Positions 12,301 to 58,051 of a DNA stretch of 64,000 nt are shown one piece after another. The DNA lies in the NCBI GenBank assembly GCA_001771585.1, contig MEUE01000003.1, positions 372,001 through 436,000 on the forward strand. Direction: 5' to 3'. The position numbers were made by a program, and so were the translations under genes. Under the pieces are notes generated by a model. It worked only from the letters and a program-made list of their open reading frames with translations. It was not told the origin of the DNA and did no database searches. This DNA comes from a candidate division WOR-1 bacterium RIFOXYB2_FULL_46_45 (GTDB lineage: Bacteria; Margulisbacteria; WOR-1; XYC2-FULL-46-14). How positions within the stretch are numbered: position 1 is the first letter of the stretch; every line of letters begins with the position of its first letter.

Positions 12301-13059
12301 ATGAAGAAATTAATTATTTTACTGTTTGCAGTAGTTTTTGTGGCCGGAATCGTCAATGTCGGTATTGCCGCAACACCAAATGAGATAAAAGCGTATATCA
12401 ATACGCTTGAATCAAAATTGAATGTTGCGATCAGGGCAAAAGACAAGAAGAGACAAGCAACTCTTAAACAAATGATTGCCGACCAAAAAGTAAGACTGCA
12501 AGCGGCGGAAATGGCTCCTCCGATCGCTGTTCCTCCTCCGCCACCACCGGCAAGGGTAGCTTCGGCTCCTTCGGCCGGGTTGTTTGGATGGGGACTGAAT
12601 ACGGATATTAATGTCGGCTATTTGATGAATAAATCCATCCTGTTTGGCCGCGCGAATATCGTATTGCCCGATCCGTTGGGATTGGGACCGATCGTCGGTT
12701 TATCGGCGGATTCCGTGAAGTATAAGCTCGGCTTGGGAGGATTCTCAGGGAATGATAATGCGGACGTTAAGTTCCAGGGTGTTCCAATTTACCTGGACGG
12801 CGTCATCAATCTTCCCGAGGACCTTTTGGGTGGAATCAAGTCATACCTGTCAGGCGGTATCAACTATCTGGTTTATCGCACGGGTAAGACCTCCGGTTCC
12901 ATCGGCGGGCAGATCGCTTTCGGGATTGCCGGCAACATCGGTCTGGGCAGTGATACCTGCCTGGAACTCGGATATTCAATCTTGAGAACAGGGGACAAAG
13001 CAGTTGCTCGTTCCTCAAAAGGGTTGACCATATCTGTAGGCCAAGCGATTACGTTATAA
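12301..13059 (+). CDS. Signal peptide / coiled-coil / beta-barrel envelope protein
   Basis: A 252-residue exported protein. The signal peptide covers residues 1-23 (cleavage after NVGIA). A charged coiled coil follows at about 24-72 (IKAYINTLESKL...KDKKRQATLKQM), then a proline linker (about 75-86), then a glycine- and aromatic-rich beta-barrel domain of about 160 residues ending in a hydrophobic strand. It shares this build with the gene at 57281-58051, including Y-x-N-x-L/V-x-x-KL-x-x-A in the coil. The coil may reach the peptidoglycan while the barrel sits in the outer membrane; this is inferred from the build. No named family recognised. Confidence 0.75.
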   Translation: MKKLIILLFAVVFVAGIVNVGIAATPNEIKAYINTLESKLNVAIRAKDKKRQATLKQMIADQKVRLQAAEMAPPIAVPPPPPPARVASAPSAGLFGWGLNTDINVGYLMNKSILFGRANIVLPDPLGLGPIVGLSADSVKYKLGLGGFSGNDNADVKFQGVPIYLDGVINLPEDLLGGIKSYLSGGINYLVYRTGKTSGSIGGQIAFGIAGNIGLGSDTCLELGYSILRTGDKAVARSSKGLTISVGQAITL

Positions 13060-50450: not shown

Positions 50451-51170
50451 TTAAATCTTTTTCTTCTTCTTTTTACGGAACACCGCCGGAGTCATTTTAA
50501 CATTTTTTTTAAATATCCGGATAAATGATTCACTGTTTAAGTAGCCGAGCTTTTCCGAAACCTGTTCAACCGAATAACCGGTATTAAGGAGCAGTTCTTT
50601 GGATTTTTCTATCTTCGCCGCCAGCTTAAAATCGTTAAAGCCCTTTCCGACAATCTCGCTAAACGCGCGGCTTAAATATTTTGGGCTAAAAAAAATAATT
50701 TTGGCGGCATCTTCAAGTGTCACCTTTTTATCCGAATTTTTTAGGATATATTCTTTGACCTTTTCAACCTTTCCTTTTAGGTCCGACGCGTCAATGTCAA
50801 AGCCCCCTTTTTTTTCAATCAAAAACTTTTTGAGCAGGCTTTTTGTTTTTTCTATATTGAAGGGCTTTTCAAGATAATCGTCGGCATTCCCTTTCAACGC
50901 TTCAATCGCGACATCTTTGGTGCTAAAACCGGTCAGCATAATTACGGGAAGACGGGGAAATTCTTTTTTTATTCGTTTTAGGGTTTGGGTACCTCGCTCC
51001 CCCGGCATCATCACGTCCAAAACGACCAAGTCAACCTGGTTTGGGAGCCGTAAGGCCTTAATGGCTTCCTCGCCACTTGCGGCTTCGACAAAAGAGTATT
51101 CGTCAAAACTTTCAACAAACTCTTTTCTAAAGCGGCTGTCATCGTCTACCAGTAAAATACCGTATGACAT
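50451..51170 (-). CDS. Response regulator with AraC-type DNA-binding domain
   Basis: A 239-residue protein: receiver domain (residues 1-120) with VDDD, phospho-acceptor Asp in LVVLDVMMPG, Thr in MLTGFS, Lys in EKPF; then an AraC double helix-turn-helix (about 140-232, KVTLEDAAKIIFFSPKYLSR and SVEQVSEKLGYLNSESFIRIF). An activator candidate for korAB, its operon partners, and for genes with the upstream AAAAAAGTCAAT element, including its own. Confidence 0.93.
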   Translation of the reverse strand: MSYGILLVDDDSRFRKEFVESFDEYSFVEAASGEEAIKALRLPNQVDLVVLDVMMPGERGTQTLKRIKKEFPRLPVIMLTGFSTKDVAIEALKGNADDYLEKPFNIEKTKSLLKKFLIEKKGGFDIDASDLKGKVEKVKEYILKNSDKKVTLEDAAKIIFFSPKYLSRAFSEIVGKGFNDFKLAAKIEKSKELLLNTGYSVEQVSEKLGYLNSESFIRIFKKNVKMTPAVFRKKKKKKI

Positions 51171-51258: not shown

Positions 51259-52416
51259 TTAAAGTCCCAGAGTGTCGGACAGGTCGTTGAGTACTTCTTC
51301 CTGCGTCAATTTTTTCAGCCCGATCCTTTTCATTATCAATTCGACCGCGAACCTCCGGTAAAGAACCGGATCCAGTATCGACAGGCTCTTCATGTCGGAG
51401 GCAATAATGCGGCGCAGCTCCGAGAGGTCGTCCCAATTTTCCCTCAATACGGCGCTAAGATTGGCATATTTTTTGATCAGTACAACGTTTAAGTAGGCGT
51501 CAAACTGCAGGCCGTAGATCTTTTTCATGTCCACAACAACTCTCCCGCCGCTTCTTTTCGCGAGGCCTTCACGGACCAAAACCTCTTCCTCTCTTCCGCT
51601 CAGCGCCCCCTGTTTTTTTACGATCTTGTTGGCTATGACCGCGTCTTCCGGAAGATGAACCGCCTCTTCAGTCGAAAGGGGGAGATCAAAATACAGTTTG
51701 TAATATGCCGACTGTTCCGAATTGATGCTTCCGGAAGCGGGATCCCGGTCAAAATCAAAATACCCTTTAATATCGCTGATGCTGTCGGCCGATTCCACGC
51801 ACTGGTCAAAAGAACGATAGGGCTGGGATAGCAAATCAACCATAACGGAGAGCATCGAATACTGATCGATCATAAGTTCGCCGGTGGTATGGATCAATTC
51901 CGGCGCCTGACGCCTCATATCGCGTGAAAGGAGGATCGGATAGGAGCCAAAAGTATTACTGGCCCATCTGGCCTGTATGACCTTTCCATCAATATCTTTC
52001 AAAATCTCAAAATACGCGTATTGCCGGCCCAGGTCGGACTCTTCCAGGTCTTGCGCGACTCCTGCCGGCGCCGATTTCCATTCGCCTTCCGATGCTTCAA
52101 ACCTCCATTTGCCGCCGATTTTTCTTATGATTGCCCCCATCGGAATGGTGGTCTGTTCCCTATATATGTTTGACACATAATTGGCAACTTTCTTGAATAC
52201 ATAAAGTTTTCCGGCGGGGGTCGGGCCGGCCAGGCTGGAATCAAACATCGGATAGCCCCGCTCATCACGATATTGAAGCATATACATTCTCTCTTTCGTC
52301 CCTCCGTTCACCTTGAGCGCCGCGTAGGGCTCTCCATGCAAATATAGGACATAGGCCCCCTTCCCCGGATAAATTACCGTTTTTACTTCGGTTTTTGAAG
52401 AAAGCTCCGACTTCAC
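51259..52416 (-). CDS. Permuted L,D-transpeptidase, C-terminal part after in-frame TAG
   Basis: This reads in the same frame as the upstream fragment (52902-52480), separated only by a TAG codon and 21 sense codons; a GTG at 52416 is the first possible restart. It holds the N-terminal half of a YkuD fold (VKTVIYPGKGAYVLYLHGEP, GPTPAGKLYVFKK, the TPxG motif), then SNTFGSYPILL and a candidate catalytic His in PELIHTTGEL, then about 200 mostly helical residues. The paralogue at 52871-54229 carries all of this in one chain. Either readthrough, restart or a pseudogene. Confidence 0.75.
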   Translation of the reverse strand: MKSELSSKTEVKTVIYPGKGAYVLYLHGEPYAALKVNGGTKERMYMLQYRDERGYPMFDSSLAGPTPAGKLYVFKKVANYVSNIYREQTTIPMGAIIRKIGGKWRFEASEGEWKSAPAGVAQDLEESDLGRQYAYFEILKDIDGKVIQARWASNTFGSYPILLSRDMRRQAPELIHTTGELMIDQYSMLSVMVDLLSQPYRSFDQCVESADSISDIKGYFDFDRDPASGSINSEQSAYYKLYFDLPLSTEEAVHLPEDAVIANKIVKKQGALSGREEEVLVREGLAKRSGGRVVVDMKKIYGLQFDAYLNVVLIKKYANLSAVLRENWDDLSELRRIIASDMKSLSILDPVLYRRFAVELIMKRIGLKKLTQEEVLNDLSDTLGL

Positions 52417-52479
52417 ATTTTTGAGGTCGGTCTTAAAGTCGATCAGGCTTATGAGAGAAGGGACACTTTTGGCTTTTTC

Positions 52480-52902
52480 CTAGTCGTAATCGGCAGTATA
52501 GGGTTTGATCTCAACCACTGAACCAATCGGAAGGATCTCGTTTAAGATCCGGACATTCACCGGCGAAACATGCAGACAGCCGTGGCTCTTGTAGAGGTCT
52601 CCGAGGATTTTGTTGGACAGCTCACAGAAATTATAGTCGTTGAACGCGTCGACACATTCAAAGTTTAATCTTCCGGCTTTTACCTCTTCTATAAGGCCTC
52701 TGATCCGAACCTTTACCTCTTCCGGAAGGACAACCGCGTCGGCGGTGTTGGTCCTGGTCATCAGATTGACCAGAGAGCCGACCATCTTTTCATAAGAAGT
52801 AGAAGTATCGGCTGACACCACCGCGAAAAAGCCGGTTAAGAAAAACAATATTAGCGCGACTAGCGCCTTCCTATTTAATGGTCCGAAATTCCAGCCGGTC
52901 AT
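52480..52902 (-). CDS. Permuted L,D-transpeptidase, N-terminal part with SHGC
   Basis: A 140-residue product: signal or membrane segment at residues 11-31, a helical region, then the L,D-transpeptidase active-site motif SHGC (Ser106-Cys109, in YKSHGCLHVSP) and the closing strand IGSVVEIKPYT. In ordinary YkuD proteins this motif ends the domain; here it begins it. The frame stops at TAG (52482-52480) and continues open to 51259. The ATG at 52902 behind GAGGGGTGGATC is preferred over 52968, which lies inside the upstream gene. Overlaps that gene by 32 bases. Confidence 0.75.
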   Translation of the reverse strand: MTGWNFGPLNRKALVALILFFLTGFFAVVSADTSTSYEKMVGSLVNLMTRTNTADAVVLPEEVKVRIRGLIEEVKAGRLNFECVDAFNDYNFCELSNKILGDLYKSHGCLHVSPVNVRILNEILPIGSVVEIKPYTADYD

Positions 52903-54229
52903 TGATCCACCCCTCAACAATCTTTTTCCTTTCTCCCTCCGCGATCCCTTCCCTGTTAAAGTCGTCAATAATGTTTTCTCTTAAGGCTCCCCAAAAGCTC
53001 CAGTCGTCTTTCAACTTTTTATACCACTTGGACTGTTTGTTTAAGGCCTCGTTATAGACCCTAAGATAATTATATAAACTTAGCGTATCCCTCTTGTCTT
53101 TCGGCAAAGAACCGGAAGTATAATCTTCAAAAGCTCTCTTCATCCTGGGATCAAGGACCGCTTTGTCCCGGGAAGTTAACGGAATCTTGTTATACAAGCG
53201 ATAAAAGGCCTCTTCTTCGGGAACCAGGCGCCCCTCCCTCCCCGCGGTTGAAACAAAATCATAGGTATTTTTATATTCCGAAAAGACCCGGCTTTTTTTA
53301 ACCAGTTTATCAAAGTCCGAAGGTCCGGGCATGGTCAAAATCTCCGCGATCTGGCCGACCACCGAATATTGCTCGAACAAAAGCGGTCCGGCACAATAAC
53401 CGAGCTCCGGATACTTGCTCCTGCCGTCTTTGGTCCAGGTTACCGCGTATTTACCAAAATCGTTCCCCACCCATTTGATTGAAATAAGCTTTCCGTCCTT
53501 GTCATAAGCGGGATCAAAATAATCGTAATATCTCTCCCCCTCCTCTTGCGCAAGATCATCCTGTATGAACTGCGGGACCGGCACCAGCCTCATCTGCTCC
53601 CTGTATTTCCAGATGCCGTTGATCTTTTGCATAACAGCCCCGAAAGGGACCTGCGTTATCCCCGAATAGGTCGGGCTGATATAATGGTCCGTTTTTTTTA
53701 AAATATGATAGGTTCCCGGATCGGTCGGCGTCGCCGTCACAAAATCTTTTTTAAGGGGCATCCCCTTTTTTACATCTTCAAGCATCAGGTAGGCCTGCCG
53801 GGGACCGGGATGCACATACATCTTTACATAGGGCCGATCGTCAACAAAAATATATAAGCGCGAGAGCGTCGGATAGACGACCATGTAAGTATTCCTCTCT
53901 TTAAACAAGGCAGTATATTTTTTTATATCTTCCTCGTTCATCACCACGCTGTCAAAAAAGCTCAGGCTGTTGTCGATAAAACCGGGCGAAGTATCCGAAT
54001 ATGACTTGATGACAAGCTTTGTCCCGGTCGGGATGGTCTTATAAAAAAGATAGATGTCTGAGGGTGAAAAATGCAGACAGCCGTGGCTGTCGTACGGGAA
54101 GCCGAGATAATCGCGGAAATAAGAGGCAAAGTTGGTTTTGTTTAAAATTTCTTTGCTTTTTAAGGCGTAACCAAAAGAGCCGCCTGCCAAAAATAAGGCG
54201 ATCAATATTAAACACAATAGTTTCTTCAT
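52871..54229 (-). CDS. Circularly permuted L,D-transpeptidase-like protein
   Basis: A 452-residue exported protein (signal peptide 1-20). The active-site block SHGCLHFSP (Ser48, His49, Gly50, Cys51) with IPTGTKLVIKSY comes first. The usual N-terminal half follows: strands TYMVVYPTLSRLYIFVDDRP, then the TPTDPGTYHIL block (167-177), QVPFGAV, and NDFGKYAV. Canonical YkuD order is the reverse. The position of the catalytic His (IHTTG in the paralogue) reads GYCAG (277-281) here, so activity is doubtful. Probably acts on peptidoglycan or is a binding protein derived from it. Followed by the paralogue. Confidence 0.8.
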   Translation of the reverse strand: MKKLLCLILIALFLAGGSFGYALKSKEILNKTNFASYFRDYLGFPYDSHGCLHFSPSDIYLFYKTIPTGTKLVIKSYSDTSPGFIDNSLSFFDSVVMNEEDIKKYTALFKERNTYMVVYPTLSRLYIFVDDRPYVKMYVHPGPRQAYLMLEDVKKGMPLKKDFVTATPTDPGTYHILKKTDHYISPTYSGITQVPFGAVMQKINGIWKYREQMRLVPVPQFIQDDLAQEEGERYYDYFDPAYDKDGKLISIKWVGNDFGKYAVTWTKDGRSKYPELGYCAGPLLFEQYSVVGQIAEILTMPGPSDFDKLVKKSRVFSEYKNTYDFVSTAGREGRLVPEEEAFYRLYNKIPLTSRDKAVLDPRMKRAFEDYTSGSLPKDKRDTLSLYNYLRVYNEALNKQSKWYKKLKDDWSFWGALRENIIDDFNREGIAEGERKKIVEGWINDRLEFRTIK

Positions 54230-54300: not shown

Positions 54301-54384
54301 AATCACGAATCTTGTTCTTCTTCAACACTTGAATAAAGGATAACATGCGTTAAGGTCGATCAAATAACAAAGGAGGTGAGAAAA

Positions 54385-54897
54385 ATGAACACCAAAACTT
54401 TTATAAGCATGATCGTGCTCTCAATTATGCTGGTTTCCCTTTCGTTTGCGGCGGACATAGATAGGATGGGAGGGAGATGGGGATTGGGCCTTTTTGGCAC
54501 AACTCCGACTGTCAGAATAAATTTCACGGATAGCGTCAGCACGCAATTAGGAGTGGGGTATCAAGCTCCGAACAGTAACGCGGTCGGATCTCCTCCCGGA
54601 GTGTTTAATGGTCTGCTCTTATTGTCGTTTAAAGGACCGACATTGGGAGAAGGAGGCAAAAACGCCATGACCTGGGGAATTCTGGGAAGAACCTCGTCAA
54701 ATGTCGGGAATGTTTCGGGGAACACTTCAACGGATGTTGGTTTAACAATTGGATTTGAAACATTGATTAATCCCAACTTTGTCGTCGGCGTAACCCTGAT
54801 TCCCGTACAGAACAGAAGCAGTGTGACCGGAGGAGTTTCCAGCAACAGCTGGGACTTCTTAAATGAAGCTCAAATAACCGGCCACATACTTTTATAA
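54385..54897 (+). CDS. Small exported beta-rich outer-membrane protein
   Basis: A 170-residue protein with signal peptide (to SLSFA). A compact barrel-like body of alternating strands follows (RWGLGLFGTTPTVRINF, TQLGVGYQAP, FNGLLLLSF, VGLTIGFETL, FVVGVTLIPV), ending in a strand with terminal leucines. No family recognised. The ATG at 54385 follows AGGAGGTGAG; a GTG at 54376 lies in the ribosome binding site. A strong terminator follows. Confidence 0.7.
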   Translation: MNTKTFISMIVLSIMLVSLSFAADIDRMGGRWGLGLFGTTPTVRINFTDSVSTQLGVGYQAPNSNAVGSPPGVFNGLLLLSFKGPTLGEGGKNAMTWGILGRTSSNVGNVSGNTSTDVGLTIGFETLINPNFVVGVTLIPVQNRSSVTGGVSSNSWDFLNEAQITGHILL

Positions 54898-57280: not shown

Positions 57281-58051
57281 CTAGAATATGATTCCGTATC
57301 CAAGCTTAAGATCCATCCCTTTCAAAGCCGGCTGGTCGACGGCATATTTAAGTCCGGCGTAACCGATCTCAACATTAACTATCCCCATTTCCGGGACATT
57401 ATAGTTTAGACCCAAATACGCTTCTACCCCCCATCTGCCGGTTCTTCCCTCGTTAACTTTTACGGGAAGAAGATACGCGCCACCCACATACCAGGTAAGA
57501 GGCAGACCCATATCGGGCAGGAATGGAGTGATATAGTAAACGGCTCCGAGCTTCGCGGAAACGGCTTTCACCTCGTCATTTCCGTTCGGATTCGTGCCGT
57601 AGACATAATTAACTCCGATCCTTGCCGACAGGCCCCGGGTAACTATTCCCGAAAGATCGTAATCAAAGTTACCCGAAAAACCGACCAAGCCCGCGTCAAG
57701 CCCTCCGTTAATATAAAGCCCCACCCCTCTCCCCGCTTCCGGAGTAGGATTGACAATTATAACCGGAGTAGGATTGACGATAATGCTGGTTGGAGCCGGC
57801 ACAACCGGTACCGCGTTTTCCATCTCGTCTTTCAGCTTGTACCAGCGGGCCAGCGTTGCCGCTTTTTCCTCATGCAGCAATTTGATCCTGGCCTTATTAT
57901 TGGCTTGCTTGGCCGTGGCCAGCTTGGCGTCCACCACATTCAGGTAATCCCTGACCGCCTGCTTCTCCTCTTCCATGGTCCGGCCAAAAGTCATCCCGGC
58001 AGCGGCCACCACAAAAGTAAAAGCAAATAGACAAATAACAAATTTCTTCAT
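57281..58051 (-). CDS. Signal peptide / coiled-coil / beta-barrel envelope protein, second copy
   Basis: A 256-residue exported protein with signal peptide (1-23), coiled coil (about 26-82, QAVRDYLNVVDAKLATAKQA), a Pro/Val linker with a repeated IIVNPTP unit, and a barrel-like region of about 150 residues ending GYGIIF. Same architecture as the gene at 12301-13059, with low identity in the barrel. AAGGAGGTGA precedes the ATG. A possible small family of peptidoglycan-reaching outer-membrane barrels. Confidence 0.75.
   Translation of the reverse strand: MKKFVICLFAFTFVVAAAGMTFGRTMEEEKQAVRDYLNVVDAKLATAKQANNKARIKLLHEEKAATLARWYKLKDEMENAVPVVPAPTSIIVNPTPVIIVNPTPEAGRGVGLYINGGLDAGLVGFSGNFDYDLSGIVTRGLSARIGVNYVYGTNPNGNDEVKAVSAKLGAVYYITPFLPDMGLPLTWYVGGAYLLPVKVNEGRTGRWGVEAYLGLNYNVPEMGIVNVEIGYAGLKYAVDQPALKGMDLKLGYGIIF

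Follow-up and report, generated by a model that had tools for sequence, protein, structure and literature searches.

Does the YkuD (L,D-transpeptidase) fold occur in nature with its two halves in exchanged order? The question is raised by two adjacent genes at positions 51259–54229 of a 64,000-nucleotide stretch, hereafter the window, from candidate division WOR-1 bacterium RIFOXYB2_FULL_46_45 (contig MEUE01000003.1, positions 372,001 to 436,000). The source genome is 1.7 Mb in size and 99.5% complete, and its relatives are Candidatus Saganbacteria/WOR-1, phylum Margulisiibacteriota. The YkuD signature reads TPxG, His and SHGC in one chain, with the spacing H(S/G/D)x16-19C (PMC3605043). An initial annotation of the window had instead described, in both genes, an SHGC block at the N-terminus followed by the TPxG strands, and a catalytic-type His in only one of them; all of these motifs were found where it had placed them. 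It is considered likely that the two genes represent a secreted tandem YkuD protein of circularly permuted order, here in a separated and partly damaged form. Below, S denotes the block equivalent to the C-terminal part of YkuD and T the block equivalent to its N-terminal half, numbered by unit. Both permuted units are encoded on the minus strand.

52871–54229, minus: gene 1 (unit 1), an open reading frame of 452 residues with a signal peptide at about residues 1–20, a Pfam YkuD match of 28.7 bits and an AlphaFold2 model
53990–54130, minus: S1 block, predicted to correspond to the C-terminal end of YkuD with its Cys strand, helix and last strand (helix 56–65 and strand 71–74 in the model)
54077–54088, minus: SHGC codons of S1 (residues 48–51 of gene 1)
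53375–53908, minus: T1 block, predicted to correspond to the N-terminal half of YkuD, with the TPTDPGTY strand and lid region, ending in GYCAG (model strands within 114–278)
53396–53398, minus: Tyr codon replacing the catalytic His in T1, within GYCAG
52874–53374, minus: helical C-terminal domain of unit 1 (predicted helices within 281–446)
52480–52902, minus: copy 2, first open reading frame, with signal peptide and S2 block (probable ATG start at 52902; the frame is open over 52480–52968)
52576–52587, minus: SHGC codons of S2, in the first reading frame of copy 2
52480–52482, minus: in-frame TAG between S2 and T2, with no stop reported at the equivalent place in relatives
51259–52416, minus: copy 2, second open reading frame of 385 residues, with the T2 block followed by a helical domain
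52210–52221, minus: TPAG of T2, within GPTPAGKLYVF
51880–51894, minus: IHTTG of T2 in the context ELIHTTGE, with the catalytic-type His at 51889–51891

In gene 1, the strand after the S1 helix reads PTGTKLVI and is followed by the segments YMVVYP and RLYIFVDD, by TPTDPGTYHIL at residues 167–177 (TPTDPGTY, 167–174), by NDFG and finally by GYCAG, in which Tyr278 occupies the place of the His. Copy 2 carries SNTFG in its second reading frame and then IHTTGE. The homologue survey proposed earlier returned the order SHGC, TPxG, His in every member, so that the order that defines YkuD proteins is absent from the family.

The relationship to YkuD was evaluated by profile comparison (hhalign) with a diverse set of 85 YkuD domains drawn from several phyla. 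When the halves were searched separately, as the initial annotation had suggested, S alone aligned with columns 124–154 (E 2.7e-10) and T alone with columns 41–87 (E 8.6e-4, score 27.3). Reversed T scored 12.6 (E 0.25), and none of 60 column-shuffled versions exceeded 18.3. With the family profile in its native order, S (query 16–46) fell on columns 124–154 (E 3.9e-8) and T (query 43–126) on columns 28–87 (E 8e-4), i.e., the two matches are crossed. A search of the PDB with the native-order profile matched 28 sequences, all of the L,D-transpeptidase type; in the match to 5bmq, the T block (query 158–183) aligns ahead of the S block (query 41–67).

The Pfam YkuD model behaves in the same manner. 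In native order, it yields a short C-terminal match, the best stretch spanning only profile positions 115–146. Gene 1 exceeds the cut-off of 23.4 bits through its N-terminal SHGC block (28.7 bits, residues 44–74 on profile 116–146), as does L050 (29.0 bits), and single units score 16.0–23.8 bits, mostly just at or below the cut-off. When T was moved before S, a single collinear match was obtained for L039 (profile 10–146, 24.9 bits, compared with 17.9 for S alone) and for L056 (profile 19–146), with a gain of a few bits. Profile searches of these genes found neither a second, ordinary-order YkuD domain, which the initial annotation had named as a competing explanation of the motifs, nor, in the permuted genes of the window, a match to VanW (PF04294). 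Collectively, the crossed profile matches and the predicted order of secondary-structure elements relative to LdtMt2, described below, support a circular permutation of the YkuD fold. The permuted family is YkuD by descent, yet it fails the order that defines YkuD.

The AlphaFold2 model of gene 1, built on a 31-sequence alignment, is a confidently predicted single domain with a predicted local distance difference test (pLDDT) value of 92.9 and a predicted template modelling (pTM) score of 0.89. In LdtMt2, the two sheets are β16-β15-β14-β11 and β11-β17-β8-β9-β10, with the His on β15 and the Cys on β16 (PMC3605043). The equivalences given here are our own reading of the motif positions. The first part of the gene 1 model comprises the β16 equivalent (52–53), αB (56–65), β17 (71–74) and a linker with a helix (99–111). 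The middle part contains β8 (114–119), β9 (124–129), β10 (132–138), an extra hairpin and the TPxG strand β11 (172–180), and the last part an enlarged lid (199–253), β14 (262–266) and β15 (275–278), followed by helices up to the C-terminus. The order of elements is thus that of LdtMt2 read as β16-αB-β17 and then β8 to β15. The long helical tails described earlier are also present in the model. Strand 71–74 has no partner inside S and therefore must pair with T in the single-chain model. Since β17 lies parallel beside β8 in LdtMt2 (PMC3605043), joining the two requires a crossover, which the helical linker would provide. The model of a fused relative of 985 residues shows the identical order of elements two times (pLDDT 83.7, pTM 0.58).

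Each unit would accordingly read S, crossover linker, T and helical domain, where S holds the Cys strand, the helix and the last strand, and T the first three strands, the TPxG strand, the enlarged lid and the His strand. The motif order sets the cut point of the permutation within the loop that connects the His to the LGxxxSHGC stretch. YkuD would be opened in this loop, behind the catalytic His and ahead of the SHGC Cys, and its former C-terminus would be linked to the former N-terminus by the helical linker.

An assembly or sequencing artefact could in principle underlie both the odd order and the broken copy 2, and the TAG of copy 2 is indeed found in this genome alone. However, the same order occurs in many independent metagenome assemblies from different projects and, intact, in a second locus of the window genome, which refutes an artefact as the cause of the order and leaves the TAG as the most it could explain; this explanation is regarded as highly improbable. 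Among 74 genomes of the phylum, the permuted family is present in 19 of the 31 genomes of the class and in one genome of another class (G034), and the permuted order recurs in about 19 genomes besides that of the window. A scan of the genome collection with strict peptide patterns, which distant relatives could escape, found the family in Margulisiibacteriota only, plus one contig labelled archaeal; no relatives were found in the viral contigs scanned. The contig in question (L073, 3.9 kb, labelled Candidatus ainarchaeum) carries a unit 1 of the Saganbacteria type, comes from the same Sandtown_F1 sample as L057 and is probably mis-binned.

In most carriers, the two units are joined in one open reading frame of about 910–1010 residues (typically about 970) in the order S1, T1, helical domain, S2, T2, helical domain. 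Each unit has a gene of its own in the window, in G034 (unit 1, then unit 2) and in G030, where unit 2 precedes unit 1 (L049:2781-5838) and both are preceded by a co-directional barrel-protein gene. In the tree, unit 1 and unit 2 each form one clade (support 99 and 97), G034 included; the duplication therefore predates the split of the two classes, and the tree indicates that the tandem is the product of one ancient duplication.

The fused arrangement also allows for a reading that dispenses with permutation. Because T1 precedes S2 in the fused chain, T1 and S2 might form one canonical YkuD domain, around which S1 and T2 close or persist as vestiges. Yet T1 is devoid of the His, so that a T1-S2 site would be dead, while the S2 Cys and the T2 His are kept in 20 of 20 units. 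Moreover, the units are found as individual genes in the window, in G030 (unit 2 first) and in G034, gene 1 on its own is predicted as a closed domain, and the SHGC of S1 is gone in four proteins in which the His of T2 is still there. On the strength of the dead T1 site, the separate unit genes and the closed gene 1 model, the canonical T1-S2 domain was rejected, and we regard it as improbable.

The same distribution of residues points to the catalytic unit of the permuted protein. In unit 2, the T2 His (IHSSGD and variants) and the S2 SHGC are each conserved in all 20 units. Unit 1 has no His in any of the 20 (Tyr in 19, Ile in one), in line with the earlier suggestion that the first copy might be a partner protein. 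The SHGC of S1 is kept in most members and reads SQGC in L050; it is lost in L052, L053, L055 and L056, and S2 and T2 are intact in all four. Since the His is confined to T2 and loss of the S1 SHGC leaves S2 and T2 intact, these two blocks are taken as the catalytic pair. Conservation thus suggests that unit 2, whose Cys precedes its His in the S-T order, is likely the enzyme, and that unit 1 is probably a substrate-positioning pseudo-enzyme.

The description of the locus as a pair of genes holds for gene 1, which is open and looks intact, but not for copy 2; relatives mostly encode one fused tandem protein. A single in-frame TAG separates the SHGC half of copy 2 from its TPxG/His half. It sits exactly in the S-T linker, and the same frame is open downstream, with 385 codons from the next start. 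A recoded TAG was considered and rejected, as TAG terminates 11 of the 38 long open reading frames of the window and is therefore an ordinary stop. Thirteen intact fused relatives share 38 invariant T2 positions; the window copy retains 28 of these, compared with 34–35 in L049, L052, L053 and the paralogue L056. In the window, copy 2 probably represents either a pseudogene or an error in the sequence. The same genome contains a second, fused copy of 720 residues (C3:234173-236335; L056:8173-10335), in which unit 1 is eroded (the SHGC is gone and about 100 residues of T1 are missing) and unit 2 is complete; the gene upstream of it codes for an RNA recognition motif (RRM)-type RNA-binding protein instead of a barrel protein. 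If the TAG is genuine, copy 2 is probably decaying, the second locus having taken over its role.

In 13 loci of the class, the gene directly upstream belongs to one protein family; it is divergent in 12 and co-directional in L049. Its product consists of a signal peptide, a short basic segment, a Pro-rich linker and a domain resembling an outer-membrane barrel. The barrel nature is suggested by sequence features; there was no significant Pfam match and one weak match to OmpW. In G034, the protein encoded 3 bp upstream of the unit genes is weakly similar to this family (E 2.7e-4 in a small set) and likewise combines a basic segment with a Pro-rich linker. In nine fused-gene loci with an intact S1, the mature N-terminus bears a Lys-rich tail, K-[ILV]-[IV]-[KR]-K, and barrel copies that are not adjacent to the enzyme gene in G008 and G018 also carry one. 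The tail is lost in all three loci that combine a degenerate S1 with an adjacent barrel gene (L052, L053, L055); these group together in the unit 1 tree and may represent one or two events, so that the match between S1 loss and tail loss is a lead, not a statistic. Close homologues of the barrel gene occur in 14 of the 19 enzyme carriers and in one of the 12 non-carriers (Fisher p 6e-4, ignoring shared ancestry and with a cut between close and distant homologues, at about E 1e-60, that was picked after viewing the list). In the window, the slot held in relatives by the barrel-protein gene beside the fused enzyme is occupied by the following gene.

54376–54897, plus: divergent neighbour, an open reading frame for a small signal-peptide protein with a barrel-like sequence and without a Lys-rich tail

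This protein had no Pfam match, and its similarity to the barrel neighbour family was not significant. Further relatives of the barrel family lie at about 12460–13056 (plus) and 57281–58051 (minus); their N-terminal extension looks like a coiled coil and is not Lys-rich, and there are several paralogues per genome. On the other side of the permuted pair, directly downstream and on the same strand, 50451–51170 encodes a response regulator whose output domain is a helix-turn-helix of the AraC type. In L039, the fused gene has a comparable regulator upstream, adjacent to a histidine kinase.

The acceptors known for L,D-transpeptidases are another meso-diaminopimelate (meso-DAP), Lys residues of lipoproteins and the N-terminus of outer-membrane barrels (PMC12729407). 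By homology, unit 2 may have transpeptidase activity. The S2 Cys and the T2 His would form the active site, and the Cys would attack the meso-DAP3-D-Ala4 bond of the peptidoglycan stem, become acylated by meso-DAP and hand the acyl group to an amine. Owing to its gene link with the permuted enzyme, the barrel protein is the best candidate acceptor. Its Lys-rich N-terminal tail, held by unit 1, would receive the acyl group, and the outer membrane would thereby be tethered to peptidoglycan. It is also possible, at odds clearly below even, that the permuted YkuD fold is no transpeptidase and that the tandem instead binds peptidoglycan, has a structural role in the envelope or acts as a hydrolase, either an L,D-carboxypeptidase or an amidase. 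The large lid insertions and helical domains, as well as the already degenerate unit 1, would fit such a role, and the YkuD family includes hydrolases such as DpaA (PMC12729407). On the other hand, unit 2 strictly conserves SHGC and IHSSGD in about 19 genomes, which favours catalysis without separating transpeptidase from hydrolase.

Several observations weigh against a permuted, active and tethering enzyme. In comparisons with small YkuD sets (14 to 29 sequences; hhalign and hmmsearch), S reaches significance and T does not, T being detected with the broad 85-sequence set only; for this reason, profile comparison indicates a homology of T to YkuD that is real but distant. Foldseek searches of both AlphaFold2 models against the PDB returned no YkuD-like structure, and a search of gene 1 against viral models nothing meaningful; Foldseek depends on chain order, and these nulls carry no information on a fold that is permuted and bears a helical tail. 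The proximity of Cys and His and the pairing of strands are predictions, based on the order of elements in the model. Unit 2 of the window is interrupted and less conserved, so the window copy may be inactive. Finally, Lys-rich tails are present on a barrel paralogue in G004, a genome devoid of the permuted enzyme, which weakens the case for the tail as substrate.

Taken as a whole, the locus may represent the first known natural permuted L,D-transpeptidase fold, duplicated into an enzyme and a pseudo-enzyme, the latter having co-evolved with the Lys-rich tail of a barrel protein and positioning it for covalent attachment to peptidoglycan, in a system that would anchor the outer membrane of a deep-branching diderm lineage; this joint proposal is tentative, and we would sooner expect one of its parts to fail than all to hold. 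Peptidoglycan is shaped by L,D-transpeptidases, which also attach outer membranes to it, and Margulisiibacteriota are a deep-branching diderm lineage near Cyanobacteria. We know of no earlier natural circular permutation of the L,D-transpeptidase fold, and no permuted YkuD domain was reported in the literature searched, including a family review from 2025. As a natural permutant, the protein would show that the active site tolerates a cut between the catalytic His and Cys. Order-dependent tools recover merely a fragment of the family, Pfam and NCBIfam registering at most such a fragment. The tandem would also offer a natural pair of enzyme and pseudo-enzyme and a candidate through which outer-membrane tethering in Margulisiibacteriota can be tested.

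Compared with the YkuD L,D-transpeptidases (PF03734; Bacillus subtilis YkuD, 1Y7M, and Mycobacterium tuberculosis LdtMt2), the permuted family shares, by profile homology, the SHGC Cys strand, the helix and the last strand, the three N-terminal strands, the TPxG strand and the His strand, as well as secretion. It differs in that the Cys block comes first and the His block last, in its helical linker, enlarged lid and long helical C-terminal domain, and in its duplication with a first unit devoid of the catalytic His. Among the carriers of the class, no convincing separate YkuD protein was found in 11 of 19. The ordinary-order YkuD proteins of the class (L001, L075-L087) mostly have T[RL]GC for SHGC and a longer His-Cys stretch. 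VanW-family L,D-transpeptidases (PF04294) share the proposed chemistry but have no sequence match to the permuted family; separate VanW proteins, a potential source of other L,D-transpeptidase activity, are encoded in 29 of the 31 genomes of the class, although the family has been described as mostly Gram-positive (PMC12729407).

The insertion between TPxG and His in the permuted family could cap the site in the manner of the capping subdomains of LdtD/YcbB and Tlde1a. These have been described as fold alterations, with permutation unmentioned (PMC9638812), and no relationship between these caps and the permuted lid was detected. A function like that of the outer-membrane-protein-tethering L,D-transpeptidases of Coxiella, Brucella and Agrobacterium (PMC12729407) is suggested by the gene association with small barrel-like proteins whose N-terminus is extended into the periplasm. 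In those systems, attachment takes place at N-terminal Gly-Gly or Ala-Asp motifs and the YkuD domain has not been reported as permuted (PMC12729407), whereas in Margulisiibacteriota the genes point to a Lys-rich tail and a permuted tandem enzyme.

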